This document shows positions 17,654-51,593 of a DNA stretch of 64,000 bases, one piece after another; the first letter of the stretch is position 1, and each line of letters begins with the position of its first letter. The DNA lies in assembly GCF_003148385.1 (NCBI RefSeq), contig NZ_CP029463.1, positions 930,001 through 994,000 on the forward strand. Direction: 5' to 3'. Below the pieces are notes generated by a model. That model made no database searches. It was not told the origin of the DNA and saw only the letters and a list, made by a program, of their open reading frames with translations. This DNA comes from Flavobacterium sediminis. GTDB taxonomy: Bacteria; Bacteroidota; Bacteroidia; Flavobacteriales; Flavobacteriaceae. Both the position numbers and the translations under genes were made by a program.

Positions 17654-18055
17654 TTATTGCATATATTTCATCATTAATCCCTGTAATTCCATTCCCCATT
17701 CCTGACCGGCAGCCATATTCTTTTTATATAATTCGCCTGCTTTTTCAGCCATTTTCTTTCCAACAGGAGTTTCATAGAATTTCAACATTGCTTTAATGTC
17801 ATCGTGGGTATATGTTTCCATATATACTTTTGCCATTTTTTCGTATAATGATGGTAAAGTAGCATCAAAATCTTTAGAGAATGCTTCTTTATTAGCTTCA
17901 GGAATACTAGCCATGATTTGCTCTTTTGCGGCAGCCATTGGTCCTGCAGCTCCTGATTTTTCAATTACTTTTAACACATCTGCTTTAAAACCATCTTGAG
18001 CAAATGTCACTGCCCCAGACAATACTAAGAAAGCAACTAAAATAACTTTTTTCAT
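17654..18055 (-). CDS. DUF2059 domain protein, exported
   Basis: This 133-aa protein has a signal peptide (MKKVILVAFLVLSGAVTFAQ) followed by a helical domain of the DUF2059 type, with the characteristic stretch MLKFYETPVGKKMAEKAGEL. It is predicted to be periplasmic. No function is established for the family. It lies 49 bp downstream of queE in the same direction and could be co-transcribed. Confidence 0.85.
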   Translation of the reverse strand: MKKVILVAFLVLSGAVTFAQDGFKADVLKVIEKSGAAGPMAAAKEQIMASIPEANKEAFSKDFDATLPSLYEKMAKVYMETYTHDDIKAMLKFYETPVGKKMAEKAGELYKKNMAAGQEWGMELQGLMMKYMQ

Positions 18056-39221: not shown

Positions 39222-39328
39222 ACGTTATCTGTTTCCGATTTGCATCAGAATAGAATGTAGCACCTTCTACAAGAGTAGGGTTGCTAAGCGTTCGTTGGGT
39301 CTATTCCCTCCCGCTTTCGTGATAACAA
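39222..39328 (-). promoter_or_regulatory. SAM-I (S-box) riboswitch upstream of metH
   Basis: The minus strand reads as a SAM-I aptamer. Helix P1 is GTTATC/GATAAC. Between lie the S-box landmarks: CGAAAGCGGGAGGGA, GACCCAACGAACGC then AGCAACC (the P2 and pseudoknot region), GAAGGTGCTA (P3 region) and TGATGCAAATCGGAAACAGATAAC (P4 region, written in part). SAM binding would turn off methionine synthase and MetF. No terminator follows, so control is probably at translation. Confidence 0.88.
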
Positions 39329-40660: not shown

Positions 40661-43072
40661 TTATTTTTTTTCGGAAAGTCTTAAAATATCACCGAAAACG
40701 CCTCTTGCTGTTACCGAAGCTCCGGCTCCGGCTCCTTGAATGACGATAGGTTGCTCTCCGTAAGATTCAGTATAAATTTCGAAAATAGAATCGGAACCTT
40801 TAAGTGAACCTAAAGCCGAACTTACCGGAACGGAAACTAATTTCACTTCTAAATTTCCTTTTTCTTGTTGTAAATCGCCCGATAATTCACCGATGTAACG
40901 CAAGACATGATTCGATTCTTGTTGTTCTTTTACTTCTTGGTACACCGGATTCAGTTCGTTTAAACGTTGTAAAAAGTCTTGAGCTGAACCTTCACGTAAA
41001 AATTCCGGAATTAAATTTTGAATTTTGATTTCGTCGAACTCATTTTGTAATTCCAGTTCGCGTGCTAAAATCAATAATTTTCGACCTACGTCATTTCCGC
41101 ATAAATCTTCACGCGGATCAGGTTCGGTAAAACCTTTATCAATCGCTTCTTGCAATACTTCTGAAAAGTTACGATCTTCTGCTGAAAAATGATTGAATAA
41201 ATAGCTTAAAGTTCCTGAAAAAACACCTCTAATTTTAGTAATATTTTCACCCGAAAGATGCAATAATTTTATGGTATCAATTAATGGTAATCCGGCACCA
41301 ACATTGGTCTCATACAAATATTCTTTTTGGTTTTTAGCCAAAACCGATCTCAAGTTTTGATAGAATTCGTAACTAATGGTATTTGCAATTTTATTGGACG
41401 AAATTAAATCGAAACCATTTTCGACTAACGGAATGTAGTTTTCTACAAAAGTTCCGTTTGCCGTGTTATCAATCGCGATTAAGTTTTCCAAATGATGGTC
41501 TTTTGCATATTCAATAACATCCGAAATGGCATAAGAAACACCTTTTTCGTTTACTTTTTCTCTCCAATTTTTAGTCGCTCCTTTTTTAGTTAACAACACT
41601 TTTTTAGAGTTGGCAATTGCGAAAACATTCAGCTTAATTCCTTTTTTCTCTTCAATCGTGTCGGCTGATTGCAAAATTTGATCTAGCAATGTTCCACCAA
41701 CAGTTCCGTGACCGAAAACCGCGATATTTATTTTTTTGGCCACTCCGAAAATTTGTCCGTGAATTACGTTTAGCGCTTTTTTAACCTCATCTCGTTTGAT
41801 GACTAAACTCACATTTTTTCCGGTAATTGTATTGTTGAATAAAATTGGAACAATATTATTGTTAATCAACGCTGTATACGATTTGTGAAACGTACTCAGA
41901 TCTTGCCCAATGATTGAAATCACCGAAACATTATCTACAATTGAAATTCGGTTTACGTCTTTGGTATAAAAGTCATTTTCAAACTCTTTTTCCAAACCAA
42001 TAACCGCTTTGGTAGCATTACTCGCCGCGACCACAATTCCGATTCCGCGTTCTGAAGAACCTTGCGAAATAATACTCACGCTGATATCATTATCGGCCAT
42101 TACTTTGAAAATTCGGGCATCAACTCCGGTTTTTCCTAACAAACCTCGACCTTCAAAATTGATTAAAGAAACATCTGGCAATACCGAAAGCGATTTAATT
42201 CCTTCTAAAGTCAAGGCTGCACTAATTAAAGTTCCTTCGTTGTCATCATTAAACGTATTGACGATACGTAACGGAATATCTTTTTCTACTAAAGGCAAAA
42301 TGGTTTTAGCATGCAGAATATTGGCTCCGAAATTGGCCAATTCATTCGCTTCATTAAACGTTAGGTGATCGATTTTTTTAGCATCAGCAACCCAATCCGG
42401 ATTGGCAGTAAAAATTCCGTCTACGTGTGTATAATTTTGCAATTCTTTAGCTTCTAAAAAATTAGCTAATAAAGCTGCGGTATAATTACTTCCGTTTCTA
42501 CCTAAAGTTGTGGTTTCGCCTGAAGCTGTTGCCGCGATGAATCCGGTTACCACGTTAACAACACCTTGATTTTCTTTGAAATACTGTTGGACTTTTTTCT
42601 TAGAAACCGCTTCAATAGGTTGCGCATTTCCAAAATTAGCATCGGTTACCAATACATTTCGGGCATCGACAAAATTGGCTTTTATTCCGTTTTCATTTAA
42701 TAAATTGGTCAAATATTTAGCTGAAATAACTTCGCCTAAAGCCACCAATTGATCTTTCACTTTTTCACTATAATCTCCTAAAAGATTAACCCCTTCCAAG
42801 ATTTTTTCGATCAACGAAAATTCTTTTTCTAAATTTAAAGTTGACGCATTATAGCTTTGGTATTCTTTAAAAAGTTCAAAATCGTCACTATATGGAACGT
42901 TGCCATGTGCTTTTTCTAACAACAATAACAATTCGTCAGTTGCATTCCCGCGAGCCGAAACTACAACGGTTACTTCTTCATTATTCGTTTGTTTTTTAGA
43001 TATAATTTGGAGTACATTTTGAATTCCTTGTCCGTTTGCTAAAGACTTTCCTCCGAATTTTAATATTTTCAT
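40661..43072 (-). CDS. thrA: Bifunctional aspartokinase / homoserine dehydrogenase
   Basis: This 803-aa fusion carries out the first and third steps from aspartate to homoserine. Residues 1 to about 290 are the kinase (MKILKFGGKSLANG, TTLGRNGSNYTAALLA), about 300-450 a pair of ACT-like regulatory segments (GVDARIFKVMADNDISVSI, VSVISIIGQDL), and about 465-803 homoserine dehydrogenase (FGHGTVGGTLLDQI, GLPLIDTIKLLHLSG, REDLCGNDVGRKLLI). Its ATG overlaps the metX stop by 4 bp. Its place in a methionine operon suggests its homoserine goes mainly to methionine here. Confidence 0.96.
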   Translation of the reverse strand: MKILKFGGKSLANGQGIQNVLQIISKKQTNNEEVTVVVSARGNATDELLLLLEKAHGNVPYSDDFELFKEYQSYNASTLNLEKEFSLIEKILEGVNLLGDYSEKVKDQLVALGEVISAKYLTNLLNENGIKANFVDARNVLVTDANFGNAQPIEAVSKKKVQQYFKENQGVVNVVTGFIAATASGETTTLGRNGSNYTAALLANFLEAKELQNYTHVDGIFTANPDWVADAKKIDHLTFNEANELANFGANILHAKTILPLVEKDIPLRIVNTFNDDNEGTLISAALTLEGIKSLSVLPDVSLINFEGRGLLGKTGVDARIFKVMADNDISVSIISQGSSERGIGIVVAASNATKAVIGLEKEFENDFYTKDVNRISIVDNVSVISIIGQDLSTFHKSYTALINNNIVPILFNNTITGKNVSLVIKRDEVKKALNVIHGQIFGVAKKINIAVFGHGTVGGTLLDQILQSADTIEEKKGIKLNVFAIANSKKVLLTKKGATKNWREKVNEKGVSYAISDVIEYAKDHHLENLIAIDNTANGTFVENYIPLVENGFDLISSNKIANTISYEFYQNLRSVLAKNQKEYLYETNVGAGLPLIDTIKLLHLSGENITKIRGVFSGTLSYLFNHFSAEDRNFSEVLQEAIDKGFTEPDPREDLCGNDVGRKLLILARELELQNEFDEIKIQNLIPEFLREGSAQDFLQRLNELNPVYQEVKEQQESNHVLRYIGELSGDLQQEKGNLEVKLVSVPVSSALGSLKGSDSIFEIYTESYGEQPIVIQGAGAGASVTARGVFGDILRLSEKK

Positions 43073-44034
43073 TTGTTAAATATGTCTTTTAAAATAGTGT
43101 TGAGTTGTTCAAATTCGATTAAAAAGGCGTCGTGTCCGTGAATGGATTCAATTTGATGCCAGTTTACTTTTTTTCCTAGTTTTTTTAGGTTTTCATAAGT
43201 TTTTAGGTTCTCATCAGCTGTGAAAAAATAATCGGTATCGACCGCTACAATGTGAATTTCTGACGTTACTTTTTCAACGGTTTTTTCGAAATTTCCGTTG
43301 CCATTTGTAATATCAATAGTTCGCAACAAGTGATTCATCAATTTATAAGCCGATAATTGAAACCGTTTTTGCAGTTTATCGCCGTGATGTAACAACCAGC
43401 TTTCAATTTGAAACAAATCGGAATCAGGTTGTTTTTCTCTGTTGAATTTAAACTGAAGTGATTGTGGCGTTCGGTACAACAACATGGCATGCATTCGCGC
43501 ATCGGCAATTGGATTTTTAGAATTATTCAAAATCGAATCTTGAACCAAAACATTCGCCATTAACCAATCTGTCGATTTCCAATCGGTTGCCACCGGAATC
43601 AAATGCGAAATTTTTTCAGGTTCTTGAATTGCCATTTGCCAAGCAATTGCTCCGCCTAAACTTCCTCCTATGGCAGCATATAATTTTTCAATTTGTAAGC
43701 TTTCAACTCCTTTCCAAAAAGCAGCAGCGATATCAGCTACGGTAAAATCTTTATAATTCTCAATGCTGTTCTCTTGATCCTGATAGGTATTTCCCGGCAC
43801 ATTGAACGCTAAAATCGTATACTGATCGGTATCGATAGTTTTGCCTTCGCCAATAAGGCTATTCCACCAGCCGCTTTCGCCTATAACCTGAGAATTTCCG
43901 GTTAACGCATGATTGACCAAAACGACCGGTGCTTTTCCTAATTTTTGGCCAAATAATTGGTAGGACAAAATTATTTTGTCTTGAACTTTTTGATTTTGGA
44001 GTGTAAACTGATGAAAAACTAATTTCTGTATCAC
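43069..44034 (-). CDS. metX: Homoserine O-acetyltransferase
   Basis: This 321-aa alpha/beta-hydrolase activates homoserine for sulfhydrylation. The catalytic triad motifs are visible: nucleophile Ser in IGGSLGGAIAWQ, the Asp region VAVDTDYFF, and His in IHGHDAFLIE; NHALTG is the oxyanion region. It is shorter than many MetX proteins. It lies 66 bp after metY, with a terminator-like hairpin between, and overlaps thrA. Confidence 0.92.
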   Translation of the reverse strand: MIQKLVFHQFTLQNQKVQDKIILSYQLFGQKLGKAPVVLVNHALTGNSQVIGESGWWNSLIGEGKTIDTDQYTILAFNVPGNTYQDQENSIENYKDFTVADIAAAFWKGVESLQIEKLYAAIGGSLGGAIAWQMAIQEPEKISHLIPVATDWKSTDWLMANVLVQDSILNNSKNPIADARMHAMLLYRTPQSLQFKFNREKQPDSDLFQIESWLLHHGDKLQKRFQLSAYKLMNHLLRTIDITNGNGNFEKTVEKVTSEIHIVAVDTDYFFTADENLKTYENLKKLGKKVNWHQIESIHGHDAFLIEFEQLNTILKDIFNK

Positions 44035-44100: not shown

Positions 44101-45393
44101 CTAAATTGTTGTATTCACGGCAAGCTTTTCAAAAACCGCTTGTAAATCGGATTTCAAATCTTCTATATCTTCCAAACCTACTGACAAACGAATTAAATCT
44201 TGAGTCACGCCAGTGGTTTTTTGTTGTTCTTCTGTTAGTTGTTGGTGCGTTGTACTTGCCGGACGAATAATTAATGATTTCGTATCCCCGATATTCGCCA
44301 ATAATGAGAATAATTCAGTTTCATTCACTAGCTGTTTAGCAGCATCGTATCCACCTTTTAAACCGAACGTCACAATCCCGCTTTGTCCTTTTGGCAAATA
44401 CTTTTGAGCCAATGTGTAATATTCCGAAGTTTTTAGCCCTGGATAGTTTACCCAAGCTACTTCATCTTGTTCTTGCAACCATTGGGCTAAAGCCAAGGCA
44501 TTTTCGCTATGCTTTTTGATTCGGATTTCCAAAGTTTCTAAGCTTTGTAAAATTTGGAACGCATTAAACGGACTCAAAGCAGCACCTAAATCACGTAATC
44601 CTTCAATTCTTGCTTTTGCAATAAACGAAGCTGCTCCTAATGCTTCATAATATTTTAATCCGTGGTAACCCGGTGATGGTTCTGTAAATTCAGGAAATTT
44701 TCCACTACTCCAGTCAAAATTTCCGGCATCGATGATTACACCACCTAATGAAGTTCCATTTCCGCCAATATATTTGGTTAACGAATGAATCACAATATCG
44801 GCTCCAAACTGAATCGGATTTAACAGATAAGGAGAAGGTACGGTATTATCTACGATAAATGGAACTTTGAATGCTTTTGCTTCTTTAGCAATAGCTTCTA
44901 AATCGAGTATATCTAATTTTGGATTTCCTAGCGTTTCAGCAAAAAAAGCTCTGGTATTTTCTTGCGCTGCATCGATAAAGTTTTTGGCATCTGAAGGATC
45001 TACAAAAGTGGTCGTTATTCCTAATCTTGGCAAGGTAACATTCAGTAAATTATAGGTTCCGCCGTATAAACTATTGGAAGCCACAATATGATCACCCGCT
45101 TTTAGTAAAGTTAGCAAAGTTGTTGAAATGGCTGCTGCTCCCGATGCGGTTACTACAGCTCCAATTCCGCCTTCTAATGCTGCTAAACGTTGTTCTAAAA
45201 CATCATTTGTAGGATTGTTCAATCTTGTATAAATATAACCGGGTTCTGCTAAACCGAATAAATTAGCCGCATGATCGGCATCGTTAAAAACGTATGATGT
45301 TGTTTGGTAAATCGGAATAGCTCTTGTTCCTCTATTTTGTTTCACGTCATATCCTGCGTGAAGGGCGTTTGTTGCAAATTTTTGTGTGCTCAT
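44101..45393 (-). CDS. metY: O-acetylhomoserine sulfhydrylase
   Basis: MetY (430 aa) makes homocysteine from O-acetylhomoserine and sulfide. Family traits are the N-terminal FATNALHAGYD, AIPIYQTTSYVF, the PLP lysine in HSLTKYIGGNGTSLGG, and the long family-specific insert RIEGLRDLGAALSPFNAFQ. It is the first structural gene of metY-metX-thrA-metZ. Its leader holds two short ORFs and a terminator, described separately. Confidence 0.95.
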   Translation of the reverse strand: MSTQKFATNALHAGYDVKQNRGTRAIPIYQTTSYVFNDADHAANLFGLAEPGYIYTRLNNPTNDVLEQRLAALEGGIGAVVTASGAAAISTTLLTLLKAGDHIVASNSLYGGTYNLLNVTLPRLGITTTFVDPSDAKNFIDAAQENTRAFFAETLGNPKLDILDLEAIAKEAKAFKVPFIVDNTVPSPYLLNPIQFGADIVIHSLTKYIGGNGTSLGGVIIDAGNFDWSSGKFPEFTEPSPGYHGLKYYEALGAASFIAKARIEGLRDLGAALSPFNAFQILQSLETLEIRIKKHSENALALAQWLQEQDEVAWVNYPGLKTSEYYTLAQKYLPKGQSGIVTFGLKGGYDAAKQLVNETELFSLLANIGDTKSLIIRPASTTHQQLTEEQQKTTGVTQDLIRLSVGLEDIEDLKSDLQAVFEKLAVNTTI

Positions 45394-45409: not shown

Positions 45410-45461
45410 GAATGTGTTATTAATTTTTTAAGTTCTAAAGTTTAGCCTAAGCAACACATTC
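45410..45461 (-). promoter_or_regulatory. Inverted repeat linking leader ORF 2 to the metY start region
   Basis: GAATGTGTT (45461-45453), inside the second leader ORF, is perfectly complementary to AACACATTC (45418-45410), which ends 16 bases before the metY ATG. The loop is 34 nt. A ribosome on the Cys codons of the ORF would block this pairing, so the pair could act as a translational switch. Confidence 0.6.
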
Positions 45462-45492
45462 GACAACATCGTCTCGGTAAATACATTTTCAT
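45442..45492 (-). CDS. Second leader peptide before metY, Cys-rich (16 aa)
   Basis: ATG 45492 to TAA 45442 encodes MKMYLPRRCCRMCCLG: four Cys and three Met in 16 residues. It sits between the attenuator terminator and the metY start. The start is preceded by A-rich sequence, as for most genes here. Translation is not proven; its composition, position and the inverted repeat argue that it is a regulatory leader. A small metal-binding peptide is an alternative. Confidence 0.65.
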   Translation of the reverse strand: MKMYLPRRCCRMCCLG

Positions 45493-45512: not shown

Positions 45513-45540
45513 AAAAAAACCTCTGCTTTTGCAGAGGTTT
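45513..45540 (-). terminator. Attenuator terminator before metY
   Basis: On the minus strand CCTCTGC (45537-45531) pairs with GCAGAGG (45526-45520) around AAAA, extended by AAA/TTT and followed by a T run. The 5' arm is also complementary to GCAGAGG within leader ORF 1. Confidence 0.9.
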
Positions 45541-45573
45541 AATATGGTTTATAGTTTAAGAAAAATAGTTACT

Positions 45574-45642
45574 TTATGCCATAGTGTTCCTCTGCGGGTT
45601 ATCCCACATCATCATACACATATTGCACATAGTTACTCTCAT
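45574..45642 (-). CDS. Met/Cys leader peptide of the metY operon (22 aa)
   Basis: ATG 45642 to TAA 45574 encodes 22 residues beginning MRVTMCNMCMMMW: six Met and two Cys in the first 13. The end (codons CCG CAG AGG AAC) contains GCAGAGG, complementary to the terminator 5' arm, and TATGG further on is complementary to CCATA before that arm. Stalling at Met or Cys codons would favour this antiterminator; full translation would favour the terminator. That Met and/or Cys supply is sensed is inferred from codon content. Confidence 0.82.
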   Translation of the reverse strand: MRVTMCNMCMMMWDNPQRNTMA

Positions 45643-45664
45643 TGGTTTATTCATTTTGACGAAG

Positions 45665-45695
45665 CAAATTTAGAACTATTTTCTACAAATACAAA
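45665..45695 (-). promoter_or_regulatory. Promoter of the metY leader/operon
   Basis: TTTG, a 19-bp spacer and TAAATTTG (45672-45665) on the minus strand fully match the Bacteroidota consensus, 23 bp before the leader ATG. Confidence 0.72.
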
Positions 45696-45806: not shown

Positions 45807-46717
45807 TTAAAACAAACCTTCAACTGAAAGATAACGCTCTCCTGTATCATAGTTAAAGGTCAACACAACTGCATCATCCGGAAGCTGTTTTATCTTTTTA
45901 GACACTGCAGCTAAAGATGCTCCGGTAGAGATTCCAACTAAAATGCCTTCTTCTTTAGCTATGTTTTTTACAAAATCAAATGCTTCGTCTTTACCTACGG
46001 TAATTATTTCATCAATTAAATCTGTTCGGTACACTTCAGGAATAAATCCGGCTCCGATTCCCTGTAATGGGTGAGGCCCCGGCTCTCCTCCACTTAAAAC
46101 CGGTGAAGCTTCGGGCTCAACAGCGATCACCTTCAGGTTCGGAAATTTTTCTTTCAAAACAGAAGCCACTCCGGTAATGTGCCCTCCGGTTCCTACACCG
46201 GTAATCAAATAATCAATCCCTCCGGAAAATCGGCTAAAATTTCCTGAGCAGTCGTTTTTTGATGCACTTCTACATTGGCAGGGTTACTAAACTGTGACGG
46301 CGACCAAGCATTCGGAATCTCCTCAACTAATTCTGCTGCGCGTTCAATAGCCCCTTTCATTCCTTTTTCACGAGGTGTTAAATCAAATTCAGCACCATAG
46401 ATCTCCATTAATTTTCTACGCTCAACGCTCATTGATTCCGGCATTACCAAAATTACTTTATAGCCTTTAACTGCAGCAACTAAAGCCAAACCGATTCCTG
46501 TATTTCCTGAAGTCGGTTCAACAATAACACTCCCCGGTTTTAAAATACCTTTTTTTTCTGCATCTTCAATCATGGCTAACGCAATCCTATCTTTAATACT
46601 ATTTCCCGGATTAGTTCGCTCTAACTTGATGAATACATTTTTAGCTGCACCAAATAATTTATTAATTTTCACCACCGGAGTATTCCCGATGGTCTCTAAA
46701 ATGTTATTTGCTTTCAT
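45807..46717 (-). pseudogene. cysM: Cysteine synthase (O-acetylserine sulfhydrylase), one-base frameshift
   Basis: Two overlapping ORFs (46717-46205 and 46208-45807) are halves of one cysteine synthase of about 303 aa, which makes cysteine from O-acetylserine and sulfide. The PLP lysine region is [11 protein letters not shown], the substrate loop [12 protein letters not shown], and the second half begins at [12 protein letters not shown] with [11 protein letters not shown] later. The first frame ends DFPEGLII. One extra G in the GGG at 46218-46220 gives [16 protein letters not shown] and a complete protein. It follows cysE by 29 bp in the same operon. The break is probably a sequence error. 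CysK and CysM cannot be told apart reliably by eye. Confidence 0.88.
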
Positions 46718-47591: not shown

Positions 47592-47624
47592 AAAAAAGCC
47601 TCTGTGTATTACACAGAGGCTTTT
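47592..47624 (-). terminator. Attenuator terminator before cysE
   Basis: On the minus strand GCCTCTGTGT (47620-47611) pairs with ACACAGAGGC (47607-47598), a perfect 10-bp stem flanked by AAAA/TTTT and a T run. It ends 26 bases before the cysE ATG. Confidence 0.92.
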
Positions 47625-47646: not shown

Positions 47647-47718
47647 CTATATGTAATAGCGTTCCTCTGCGGATAATCTCCCCATGCAAGTACACACGCT
47701 ACAACACGTAAATCTCAT
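47647..47718 (-). CDS. Cys leader peptide of the cysE-cysM operon (23 aa)
   Basis: ATG 47718 to TAG 47647 encodes a 23-residue peptide starting MRFTCCSVCTCM, with four Cys in seven residues. The later codons hold CGCAGAGG, which can pair with CCTCTGTG of the terminator 5' arm (8 bp, one wobble). TAGCGT over the Cys codons can pair with ACGCTA just after that segment, a possible anti-antiterminator. Together this is a classical attenuator layout sensing charged tRNA-Cys. Function is inferred. Confidence 0.85.
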   Translation of the reverse strand: MRFTCCSVCTCMGRLSAEERYYI

Positions 47719-47953: not shown

Positions 47954-47962
47954 CAGCCGAAT

Positions 47963-48016
47963 TCGAGGAAAAATTTGAACTGATTGCAACCTCATAAAAA
48001 AATGCTAAAGCAGTGT
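47963..48016 (+). promoter_or_regulatory. SAM-II riboswitch upstream of metK
   Basis: The sequence has the SAM-II landmarks in order: P1 5' strand GAGG, ATTTGA, ATTGCAA, P1 3' strand CCTC, an A-rich linker and GCTAAA. The pseudoknot can form between ACTG (47979-47982) and CAGT (48011-48014). It begins a few bases after the predicted transcription start and lies about 65 nt before the metK ATG. SAM made by MetK would bind it, giving end-product control. Confidence 0.85.
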
Positions 48017-48080
48017 TTTACTTCTTTTAGCTTTTCCCTGCAACAAATTTTCCTCACTCATCTTTAAAAATAAAATTATT

Positions 48081-49412: not shown

Positions 49413-51593
49413 ATGAAAGAAAAACTACTCTTTGTATTTTTATCTTTAGCCTTTATATTCCCTAAACTGATATTCGGTCAAGTAGGCGTCAATACGACCA
49501 ACCCTAAAGCAGTATTAGATATCAAAGCGTCCAACGCTGCTACTCCAAACAACCAAGACGGAATTCTTATCCCAAGAGTTGCTGCTTTCCCTAGTGTCAA
49601 TCCTACGACTGACCAAAACGGAATGTTGGTATTTTTAACGACCATCAACGGTACATACCAACCCGGATTATATTATTGGGATCATCCGACACATCAATGG
49701 ATCGCATTAGCCTCTTCCAAAAACGTTTGGTTCACAACCGGGAATAGTAATATAGACAGTAATACTAATTTCATAGGAACTACAGACGATAACGATTTTC
49801 TGATCAGAAGAAACAACACCGAATCAGGATTAATAGGTATCGAGAATACCTCTTATGGTTATAACTCCCTTAAAACTAATTCCTCCGGCACACACAACAC
49901 CGGATTCGGAAGTAATTCCCTGAGTTCTAATTCATCCGGGAGTTACAATACAGCTATAGGATACGGTACTTTAAATACGAACAATTCCGGTTATGAAAAT
50001 ACAGCCGAAGGTTATAATGCTTTACACCTGAACAATTCAGGCTACTACAATACCGCTGTAGGCAGTAACAGTATGGTTAAAAACACTTCCGGAAATAACA
50101 ATACAGCTATCGGTACTTATTCATTAACCGAAAATACTATCGGTATTAACAACACAAGTGTTGGTGTCAATTCTTTGCGAAACAATACTTCCGGAAATGA
50201 AAACACTTCCATAGGAGTCTATAGTATGTTCAATAATAGTAGCGGCAGGAACAATACCGCCGTAGGCTCTTATACTATGCTGAGCAATACCACCGGAAAA
50301 TACAATACGGCTATAGGAAGTGCCGCATTAAACGCTAACCAAACCGGAGAGAACAACAATGCTTTCGGATTGGGAGCTTTGCGTTCTAACTCAACCGGAA
50401 ACAGTAACACTGCTATCGGTGTAAATGCTATGTACTCCAACACTACCGGAAACAAAAACATTGCTATAGGTGAAAACACGTTGTACACCAATACTTCCGG
50501 AGATGAAAATATTGCGATCGGTTTTAATGCCTTAAATAAAAACACTATAGGAACTCAAAATATTGCTTTAGGAAGTAATTCTTTAGAAAGCAATGCTTCA
50601 GGAATTAAAAATAATGCCATCGGTTTTAATGCTTTAAACAAGAACACTACTGGTAGTGAAAACATTGCTTTTGGATCCAATACTTTAGAAAACAATACGA
50701 CAGGAAGTCAGAACACTGCTATCGGGACTTATTCACTACAAAGTAATATCAGCGGAATTAAGAATACGGCTATCGGTGAAAATAGTTTATTAGTTAATTC
50801 CGGAGGAAATTCTAATACTTCAGTAGGAGTAGGAAGTCTTGAGAATAATTCCAACGGAAATGAAAATACTGCCTTAGGAACAGAATCCCTTTACTACAAT
50901 ATTAACGGTAGTTTCAACTTAGCTTTAGGAAAAGGTTCCTTAAGAGCCAACCAAAACGGCAATTACAATACGGCTTCCGGAGCATTAGCACTAAGCAGTA
51001 ACGTTAACGGGAATAACAATACCGCCATCGGTTACCGTGCTTTTTACAATGGTAATTACAGCAATTCTACTGCCATCGGATACAATACCGTTATTAATGG
51101 AAATAATCAGATTCGCTTAGGAAATTATTATGTAACCAGTATCGGAGGTTTTGTGAACTGGTCTAATCTTTCGGACAAGCGTTTTAAGAAAAACGTGCAA
51201 GAAGATGTGATCGGTTTAGACTTTATCTTACGATTAAAGCCTGTTACTTATAATCTGGATCTTACCCGATTACAGCAATTTTTAGGAAATAACGATTTGG
51301 ATAATGATCTAAACAAAAATGAAAACGTTCGTTTTTCCGGTTTTTTAGCGCAAGATGTTGAAGCATCAGCTAATGCTGTGGGTTATGATTTCAGTGGTAT
51401 TGACAAACCTCAGAATGAAAACGGCCACTACAGTCTGCGATATGCAGAATTTGTAGTTCCGTTAGTAAAAGCGACGCAAGAACAACAAGCGGAAATACAA
51501 ACACTGAAAAAAGAATTAGATAAAGAGCGTAAGAAGAATGAAGAATTAGAAAGTCGTTTAGAGCGTCTGGAAAAATTACTTTTAAAGGAATAA
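49413..51593 (+). CDS. Exported 17-residue-repeat protein with peptidase S74-type chaperone domain
   Basis: This 726-aa protein has a signal peptide (ending FPKLIFGQ), an N-terminal part common in Bacteroidota exported proteins (VGVNTTNPKAVLDIKAS, NQDGILIPRV), then 23 full and one partial 17-residue repeats of the form NTAIGxxSLxxNxxGxx (residues 145-552), like the head repeats of trimeric adhesins. From about residue 586, SDKRFKKNVQ starts an intramolecular chaperone domain of the endosialidase (peptidase S74) type, which normally cuts itself off after trimer assembly. The last 50 residues form a charged coiled coil. It is probably a trimeric surface fibre. No phage genes are near. Confidence 0.85.
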   Translation: MKEKLLFVFLSLAFIFPKLIFGQVGVNTTNPKAVLDIKASNAATPNNQDGILIPRVAAFPSVNPTTDQNGMLVFLTTINGTYQPGLYYWDHPTHQWIALASSKNVWFTTGNSNIDSNTNFIGTTDDNDFLIRRNNTESGLIGIENTSYGYNSLKTNSSGTHNTGFGSNSLSSNSSGSYNTAIGYGTLNTNNSGYENTAEGYNALHLNNSGYYNTAVGSNSMVKNTSGNNNTAIGTYSLTENTIGINNTSVGVNSLRNNTSGNENTSIGVYSMFNNSSGRNNTAVGSYTMLSNTTGKYNTAIGSAALNANQTGENNNAFGLGALRSNSTGNSNTAIGVNAMYSNTTGNKNIAIGENTLYTNTSGDENIAIGFNALNKNTIGTQNIALGSNSLESNASGIKNNAIGFNALNKNTTGSENIAFGSNTLENNTTGSQNTAIGTYSLQSNISGIKNTAIGENSLLVNSGGNSNTSVGVGSLENNSNGNENTALGTESLYYNINGSFNLALGKGSLRANQNGNYNTASGALALSSNVNGNNNTAIGYRAFYNGNYSNSTAIGYNTVINGNNQIRLGNYYVTSIGGFVNWSNLSDKRFKKNVQEDVIGLDFILRLKPVTYNLDLTRLQQFLGNNDLDNDLNKNENVRFSGFLAQDVEASANAVGYDFSGIDKPQNENGHYSLRYAEFVVPLVKATQEQQAEIQTLKKELDKERKKNEELESRLERLEKLLLKE
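49845..51068 (+). repeat. 51-bp tandem coding repeats (about 24 units)
   Basis: Units of 51 bp encode the 17-residue repeats. Twenty-three full units run from 49845 to 51017 in constant phase, followed by a degenerate one. Units differ in sequence; the AAT-ACN-GCN-ATN-GGN start is best conserved. Units 14 and 16 (FNALNKNT) are nearly identical, a sign of recent duplication or conversion. Confidence 0.9.

Follow-up and report, generated by a model that had tools for sequence, protein, structure and literature searches.

A Met/Cys-codon leader and predicted transcription attenuator before metY in Flavobacterium and its relatives

Introduction

In Flavobacterium sediminis a short open reading frame (ORF) crowded with methionine and cysteine codons is sited between a promoter and the metY operon and is followed by an intrinsic terminator. 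We conclude that this element is very probably a ribosome-read transcription attenuator: metY would be turned on when charged Met-tRNA, and probably charged Cys-tRNA, is short. Termination, ribosome stalling and the response to amino acids we infer from sequence comparison. The window, as we call the whole stretch of DNA that was analysed, comprises 64,000 nucleotides (contig NZ_CP029463.1, positions 930,001 to 994,000). An earlier note had read one of its regions as an attenuator sensing the charging of Met and/or Cys tRNA. Comparative evidence supports that reading, because the ORF and terminator are conserved, the spacing from stall codon to antiterminator is nearly fixed, the antiterminator covaries, and the same scaffold recurs at cysE with Cys codons and at ilv genes with Ile/Val codons.

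Control of methionine genes in bacteria is usually described in terms of SAM riboswitches, T-boxes or repressors. Methionine is also a difficult amino acid to read out through stalled ribosomes, since it begins every ORF.

Results

The leader in the window

All parts of the element lie on the minus strand. The consensus promoter claimed in the earlier note is present at 45694-45665: TTG (45694-45692) and TAAATTTG (45672-45665) are separated by 19 nucleotides, an arrangement, TTG-N19-TAAATTTG, that we take to fit the Bacteroidetes consensus TTG-N19-TAnnTTTG. A sigma-70 scan gave no minus-strand site at this promoter. In elements of the window's type (class A, defined by a terminator arm with CCTCTG and a Met/Cys-rich ORF; 62 elements, 55 distinct sequences), a loose form of the -7 box stands 5' of the leader in 47 of 62.

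The 22-codon ORF of the same note also exists, running from ATG at 45642 to TAA at 45574 and encoding MRVTMCNMCMMMWDNPQRNTMA. An alternative in-frame ATG at 45654 would give 26 codons; homologous ORFs upstream of metY in relatives, when aligned, agree with the 22-codon start. The codons are ATG AGA GTA ACT ATG TGC AAT ATG TGT ATG ATG ATG TGG GAT AAC CCG CAG AGG AAC ACT ATG GCA TAA, so that six internal Met and two Cys fall within 22 codons. Eight consecutive positions, ATG TGC AAT ATG TGT ATG ATG ATG (45607-45630), form the putative sensor; its last ATG (45609-45607) begins 14 nucleotides before segment 2. This segment, GCAGAGG (45595-45589), is the 5' side of the predicted antiterminator and lies within the ORF, as does its extension TATGG (45583-45579). 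Their partners are segment 3, CCTCTGC (45537-45531), and CCATA (45547-45543), and the extension pairs with CCATA in the minimum free energy fold; in some relatives this pair is TATTG/CAATA. Segment 3 is also one arm of the claimed terminator, found at 45540-45513 by scan, by folding and by a covarying stem: ten pairs (45540-45517) and then seven U, with GCAGAGG (45526-45520) as the other arm, segment 4. A short hairpin, GTGGG/CCCGC (45594-45607; fold -8.4 kcal/mol, z -3.8), is a possible segment 1:2 structure. Between terminator and metY lies a second small ORF with Arg and Cys codons, MKMYLPRRCCRMCCLG (45442-45492). Its 21-nucleotide core is identical in five of 81 genus genomes and confined to the window's clade; it could be a clade-specific Cys upstream ORF or an RNA or DNA site.

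How easily would such pairings arise by chance? The duplex between ORF and arm reaches -17.3 kcal/mol, and none of 300 shuffles did as well. When the region is folded without the 3' terminator arm, exactly the proposed 7 + 5 base pairs appear, GCAGAGG/CCTCTGC plus TATGG/CCATA (-19.3 kcal/mol, z = -3.8), which bears out the earlier claim of complementarity between the end of the ORF and the terminator arm with the CCATA before it. The terminator folded alone gives -15.3 kcal/mol (z = -5.5). Around the element there are three terminator-like sites within 1 kb, one being the same stem on the other strand, compared with 0.4 in shuffles. For the 26-codon version, the Met/Cys content has a probability of about 1e-7 if background frequencies of 2.5% for Met and 1% for Cys are assumed. 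In the naked RNA of the window, the ORF folds on itself.

Conservation before metY and exchange with SAM-I

We found metY in relatives by its protein sequence. Of 130 loci, 124 were counted; one had too short an upstream region, and in five metY fell below 60% identity. Some species enter the 124 twice, as the named and unnamed collections overlap. A Met/Cys-rich ORF with a terminator precedes metY in 104 of these 124 loci. The case that the earlier note named as counting against its reading, a terminator kept where the ORF is gone, has a near example in a single locus among the 124: L018 retains the terminator, and its frame is just nine residues long with one internal Met. With L017, whose frame holds three Met/Cys, it makes up the two loci that keep the scaffold with few Met/Cys codons.

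In 15 of the 124 loci, all outside Flavobacterium, Rfam scans place a SAM-I riboswitch directly before metY, and the leader is absent (L107, L109, L255, L257-L260, L262, L263, L265, L266 and L270-L273). One locus, L264, has SAM-II there in an Rfam scan, and in two, L256 and L275, neither leader nor riboswitch was found before metY. Cmscan found all 15; a regular expression for SAM-I was too insensitive and caught six of them. None of the 28 leader loci (of 104) that were scanned with Rfam has SAM-I directly upstream; in nine of these 28 it lies downstream of metY, as in the window's cluster.

On a tree of metY built from 47 rows chosen by hand (27 leader, with L017 and L018 so labelled, 15 SAM-I and five in no group), the leader and SAM-I labels need to change four times, at least two of these changes being forced by well-supported branches. 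The leader locus L274, for example, sits in a supported group with five SAM-I rows. Judged by this tree, leader and SAM-I would need to have been exchanged before metY at least twice.

Geometry and pairing of the antiterminator

The distance from sensor to antiterminator is close to constant. The last Met or Cys codon starts 14-15 nucleotides before GCAG(A/G)G in 53 of the 55 distinct sequences of class A, and in 47 of the 55 segment 2 ends 15-16 nucleotides before the end of the stop codon. By this geometry, a ribosome stalled on the sensor codons would leave segment 2 free, and one that has reached the stop codon would cover it. The translation of segment 2 is another matter: it is read as ..P-Q-R.. 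in 38 elements and as ..S-A-E.. or similar in 17. Because segment 2 is read in two frames while the spacing stays, it is the RNA and not the end of the peptide that appears to be held.

Pairing was compared in 34 class A elements hand-picked from 61; the motif pattern missed six more, and elements with a GCCTCCC arm, which pair in another register, were excluded. Over seven pairs, 92.9% of cells are paired, against 32-60% when one strand is slid. Compensatory changes occur at two pairs, as in GCAGGGG/CCCCTGC and GCAAGGG/CCCTTGC; the seventh pair is kept in 18 of 34. None of 500 shuffles reached the covariation score and 21 of 500 reached the number of two-sided pairs, in controls that ignore shared ancestry. 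The 1:2 hairpin is predicted in the class A alignment as a short stem, with covariation not above shuffles.

The arms of many elements share CCTCTGC, which blunts a test of cognate against non-cognate pairs by perfect helices, and we used duplex energies instead. In 29 hand-picked elements, cognate duplexes average -13.0 kcal/mol and non-cognate ones -9.7 kcal/mol. The shuffle p value was below 0.1 in 20 of 29 (below 0.05 in 14) and 0.1 or more in nine; these nine include both ilvD elements, two of the three GCCTCCC-arm elements at metY and, in a test that left out the class B loop, four of six class B elements. With the loop, the ten pairs of class B are filled in 92.7% of cells, and sliding lowers this to 68% or less; 113 of 500 shuffles reached its two-sided changes and five of 500 its covariation score. 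These shuffles, too, ignore shared ancestry. The motif is missing from five of 67 distinct class B elements. Duplex energies, covariation and folds together point to an antiterminator that is exclusive with the terminator and has its 5' side in the end of the ORF.

Two classes in series

Class B is exemplified by the leader MKTIAKRNMMCCEMMQMCIPICCCQK with the terminator CCCTTTTGG... Many Flavobacterium species carry class A and then class B in series before metY, and the same arrangement, judged by position, content and sequence, occurs in other genera (L267-L269, L276, L277). Two qualifying, differently coded leaders within 600 nucleotides are found in 33 of the 104 leader loci. No class B element was found in the window's clade. 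A B-like element also lies between metY and metX in 27 loci (from a scan of 70 named loci), preceded in the loci that were read by an A-like element with few Met/Cys codons. Met makes up 17.6% and Cys 11.7% of the residues after the start in 41 distinct class A peptides, a set picked partly for Met/Cys; Cys accounts for 17% in the class B set, likewise picked. Fold enrichments of 19 and 43 were set aside, because the peptides had been pre-filtered for Met/Cys and the background counts sulphur-poor enzymes.

In one clade the class A copy is found some 3.5 kb upstream, ahead of a gene for a TonB-dependent receptor (L110, 2195-5224, and similar loci); the receptor is perhaps an outer-membrane importer of a sulphur compound. 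In F. ginsenosidimutans an ORF of 61 amino acids is found between the class B terminator and metY (L042, 5739-5924), and L083 has a similar one.

How specific is the combination of ORF and terminator? We scanned 930 kb, made up of the 70 named loci that are 13 kb or longer, for a Met/Cys-rich ORF 8-75 nucleotides before a terminator and read part of the peptides. Of 153 matches, 95 fall within 700 nucleotides before metY. The other 58 comprise 24 class A elements further upstream, 27 class B-like elements before metX, one at cysE and six others, so that 52 of the 58 are related elements. Three of the six are metY- or metX-upstream elements, and three stand before an EamA transporter gene. The same scan of the whole window gave three matches: the metY element, the cysE element and, at 17752, the end of a longer gene. 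Met/Cys-rich leaders with terminators precede EamA transporter genes in L068 (5238-5073, minus strand), where the gene adjoins an amino acid permease, and in L094 (4671, minus strand), which suggests a transporter of sulphur amino acids.

The same scaffold before other genes

A search model was built from class A elements. Within the window it matches a second site before cysE, at 47722-47589 on the minus strand (E 3.1e-11). Here the leader ORF (47647-47718), MRFTCCSVCTCMGRLSAEERYYI, has four Cys codons and one internal Met, and its last sensor codon is ATG. Segment 2 (47664-47670) is GCAGAGG, as in the metY copy, by sequence, duplex and fold; the terminator, GCCTCTGTG..CACAGAGGC, occupies 47598-47620. 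This Cys-type copy, 2 kb upstream of the metY element, had no place in the earlier note. At cysE generally, a Cys-containing ORF with a terminator occurs in six of 24 loci, the window included (30 loci fetched, 24 validly scanned over 700 nucleotides upstream; L178 was excluded for its cut flank).

Twenty regions were hand-chosen from the model matches, and the gene families of L238, L245 and L248 were identified. In Flavobacterium genomes, leaders with Cys and Met codons precede cysH-cysD-cysN (L238, L239, L243); one with Met codons, MTKTRLNMAMMMMWRNSAEVAIA, precedes metH (L245). Ile/Val codons fill the leader before ilvE-ilvD in the window's own genome (L169, MRNLIVIIAVIIIVIPQLQRMVI) and, again in Flavobacterium, those before ilvD in L248 and L249. 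As the sequences have it, codon identity follows the pathway on what looks like a single scaffold. Leaders with one to three Met/Cys codons lie before OsmC-metX genes (L230-L233, L081 and others). Because the scaffold is kept there, as in L017 and L018, with few Met/Cys codons, sensing by these elements is doubtful. The metE gene, present in 16 of 61 genus genomes, had no leader in the 15 loci scanned.

The class A model matches 103 of 121 genus genomes. At the level of the order it matches 79 of 296 genomes, most matches beyond the genus being weak. At a stricter E of 1e-4, nine of 295 genomes of the class match, six of them in the genus (the window's included) and three others weakly. The clearest matches outside the genus are a metY element in another genus (L162), a metX element (L168) and, in another family, the leader MIQIQKNMCCMCMCRNYTEAYYAL before cysH (L166). 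A further match outside the genus that was inspected, L167, has no such leader.

The gene cluster of metY

The gene behind the leader belongs to the O-acetylhomoserine/O-acetylserine sulfhydrylase family (44101-45393, minus; TIGR01326, 638.8 bits, cut-off 495.1). Next come a metX-like gene of the homoserine O-acetyltransferase family (43069-44034, minus), whose best match, NF001209, is below its cut-off, and a bifunctional aspartate kinase/homoserine dehydrogenase (40661-43072, minus; NF006959, 751.2 bits, cut-off 726). Further down the cluster, before metH, lies a SAM-I riboswitch (39222-39328, minus; RF00162, 74.7 bits), which the earlier note had not recorded. A long-loop SAM-II riboswitch precedes metK on the plus strand (47959-48018; Rfam match). 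The neighbourhood holds three kinds of sulphur sensor. RF00162 and RF01726 match the window solely at these two sites, and we reject SAM-I or SAM-II at 45513-45695; a T-box at this site is rejected as well, no Rfam T-box matching in the window at gathering score.

The 430 residues of the window's metY protein include no internal Met and no Cys. Of 80 metY relatives, 79 likewise lack internal Met, and Cys is absent from all 80. Because the 80 include two loci from Aquimarina that are under SAM-I control, this composition is not a mark of the attenuator; it is in keeping with an enzyme made when Met or Cys is short. Depletion of sulphur in enzymes of sulphur assimilation is known. The aspartate kinase/homoserine dehydrogenase, of 803 amino acids, has one internal Met and one Cys.

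The cysteine synthase gene that follows cysE is split into overlapping frames of 170 and 133 amino acids (46205-46717 and 45807-46208, minus). In the close relative L031 it is intact, as one frame of 303 amino acids; the split may reflect an error in the sequence or a genuine frameshift. On the plus strand, 49413-51593 encodes a protein of 726 amino acids with many N-T-A-I/V-G repeats, which looks like a surface or fibre protein.

Discussion

How might the leader control metY? RNA polymerase and ribosome would start almost together, the 5' end being very short. With Met and Cys plentiful, the ribosome would reach the UAA and cover segment 2, leaving segments 3 and 4 to form the terminator. With Met-tRNA uncharged, it would stop on the run of ATG codons. 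When the last ATG is in the A-site, the front edge of the ribosome, placed by the known length of its footprint, would lie about at the start of segment 2, 14 nucleotides away, and segment 2 would stay free. Free segment 2 would then pair with segment 3 (7 + 5 pairs), no terminator would form, and metY and the following genes would be transcribed. Where two elements stand in series, transcription would have to get past each of them.

An arrest peptide would call for the ORF and the terminator just as much. By this account, as with TnaC and tryptophan, the nascent Met/Cys-rich peptide would itself stall the ribosome on binding Met, Cys, SAM or a thiol stress signal, and the same antiterminator would follow. 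A motif C-N-M-C-x-M-M-W does recur in many class A peptides. The peptides vary widely, however, while the type of codon and its spacing stay: MMMTMMMW (L019), CCSVCTCM (cysE), MAMMMMW (metH) and IIIVIVII (ilvD). The C-terminal residues shift frame as well (PQR or SAE) while the RNA element is kept, and we hold an arrest peptide to be quite improbable. We give hardly any credence to a real small protein, copper-binding or oxidant-sensing for example, whose transcript the terminator merely ends. Clusters of Met and Cys resemble metal-binding motifs, yet these elements precede metY, cysE, cysH and metH, Ile/Val codons occupy the same scaffold before ilv genes, and the terminator arm pairs back into the ORF.

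A closer relative of the attenuator reading is one in which Met alone is sensed and the Cys codons are passengers or serve fine-tuning. Leaders before metY with Met and without Cys exist (the first elements of L019 and L020, and L261), and ATG is the last sensor codon both in the window's metY leader and in the cysE copy. Against this, Cys amounts to 12% of the residues in the picked class A set and to 17% in that of class B, the cysE copy sets four Cys codons against one internal Met, and TIGR01326 is named for both homocysteine and cysteine synthesis. We regard sensing of Met alone as unlikely, if still a serious candidate, and favour the attenuator that reads Met and probably Cys.

A broader picture is, on balance, the one we lean towards. 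One family of attenuators, built on a single chassis and set by its codons (Met, Cys, Met+Cys, Ile/Val), would run the sulphur amino-acid economy of Flavobacteriaceae. At metY, often as two elements in series, it would act as a two-stage Met/Cys gate, and this gate would have been exchanged with SAM-I at least twice. SAM-I kept further down the cluster would let the pathway read both tRNA charging and SAM, and its first enzyme would be made without Met or Cys beyond the start.

If leader and SAM-I trade places at the same promoter, when does measuring charged tRNA beat measuring SAM? A natural series for testing how stall position sets read-through is offered by the serial pair and by a chassis whose codons can be swapped. 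Such leaders could also help to assign substrates to the transporters that carry them.

The element resembles the classical trp, his, thr, ilv, leu and phe attenuators in its short ORF of pathway codons, its antiterminator exclusive with an intrinsic terminator and its stall geometry. It differs from them in its Met/Cys codons, its frequent occurrence as two in series, its very short 5' end and its home in Flavobacteriaceae; the 1:2 stem is predicted. In Gram-positive bacteria, Met T-boxes and S-boxes control met genes by termination in response to tRNA charging or SAM; here the proposed sensor is the translating ribosome. SAM-I (RF00162), which in Aquimarina and other genera stands before metY where the leader would be, binds SAM and has no ORF.

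Mycobacterial cys upstream ORFs share with the present leader a Cys-codon ORF before sulphur genes (PMC1262725, PMC13236596, as excerpted). The excerpted text of PMC1262725 describes, for Actinobacteria, Cys upstream ORFs that lack conserved terminators. It found methionine operons there to be preceded by no conserved RNA structure and points to S-boxes as the methionine elements of other species; here a terminator and a predicted antiterminator are present. In the excerpts of PMC13236596, ilvB1 attenuation is described and cysteine genes of M. smegmatis are cited as being under translation attenuation. Within the same genus, a transcriptome study of F. psychrophilum reports strong clues that operons for amino-acid biosynthesis are preceded by leader-peptide attenuators (PMC9723704); "methionine" is absent from its main text as excerpted. 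Excerpts of PMC7366714, PMC2965389 and PMC4833913 provide further background. In the literature searched, which covered few subscription-journal papers, we recognised no Met leader-peptide attenuator and found no Met/Cys specificity with an intrinsic terminator, no serial pair and no exchange with SAM-I. The class of mechanism is the known, classical one; what seems new is its Met/Cys specificity, a chassis common to several pathways, the pairing in series and the trading of places with SAM-I.
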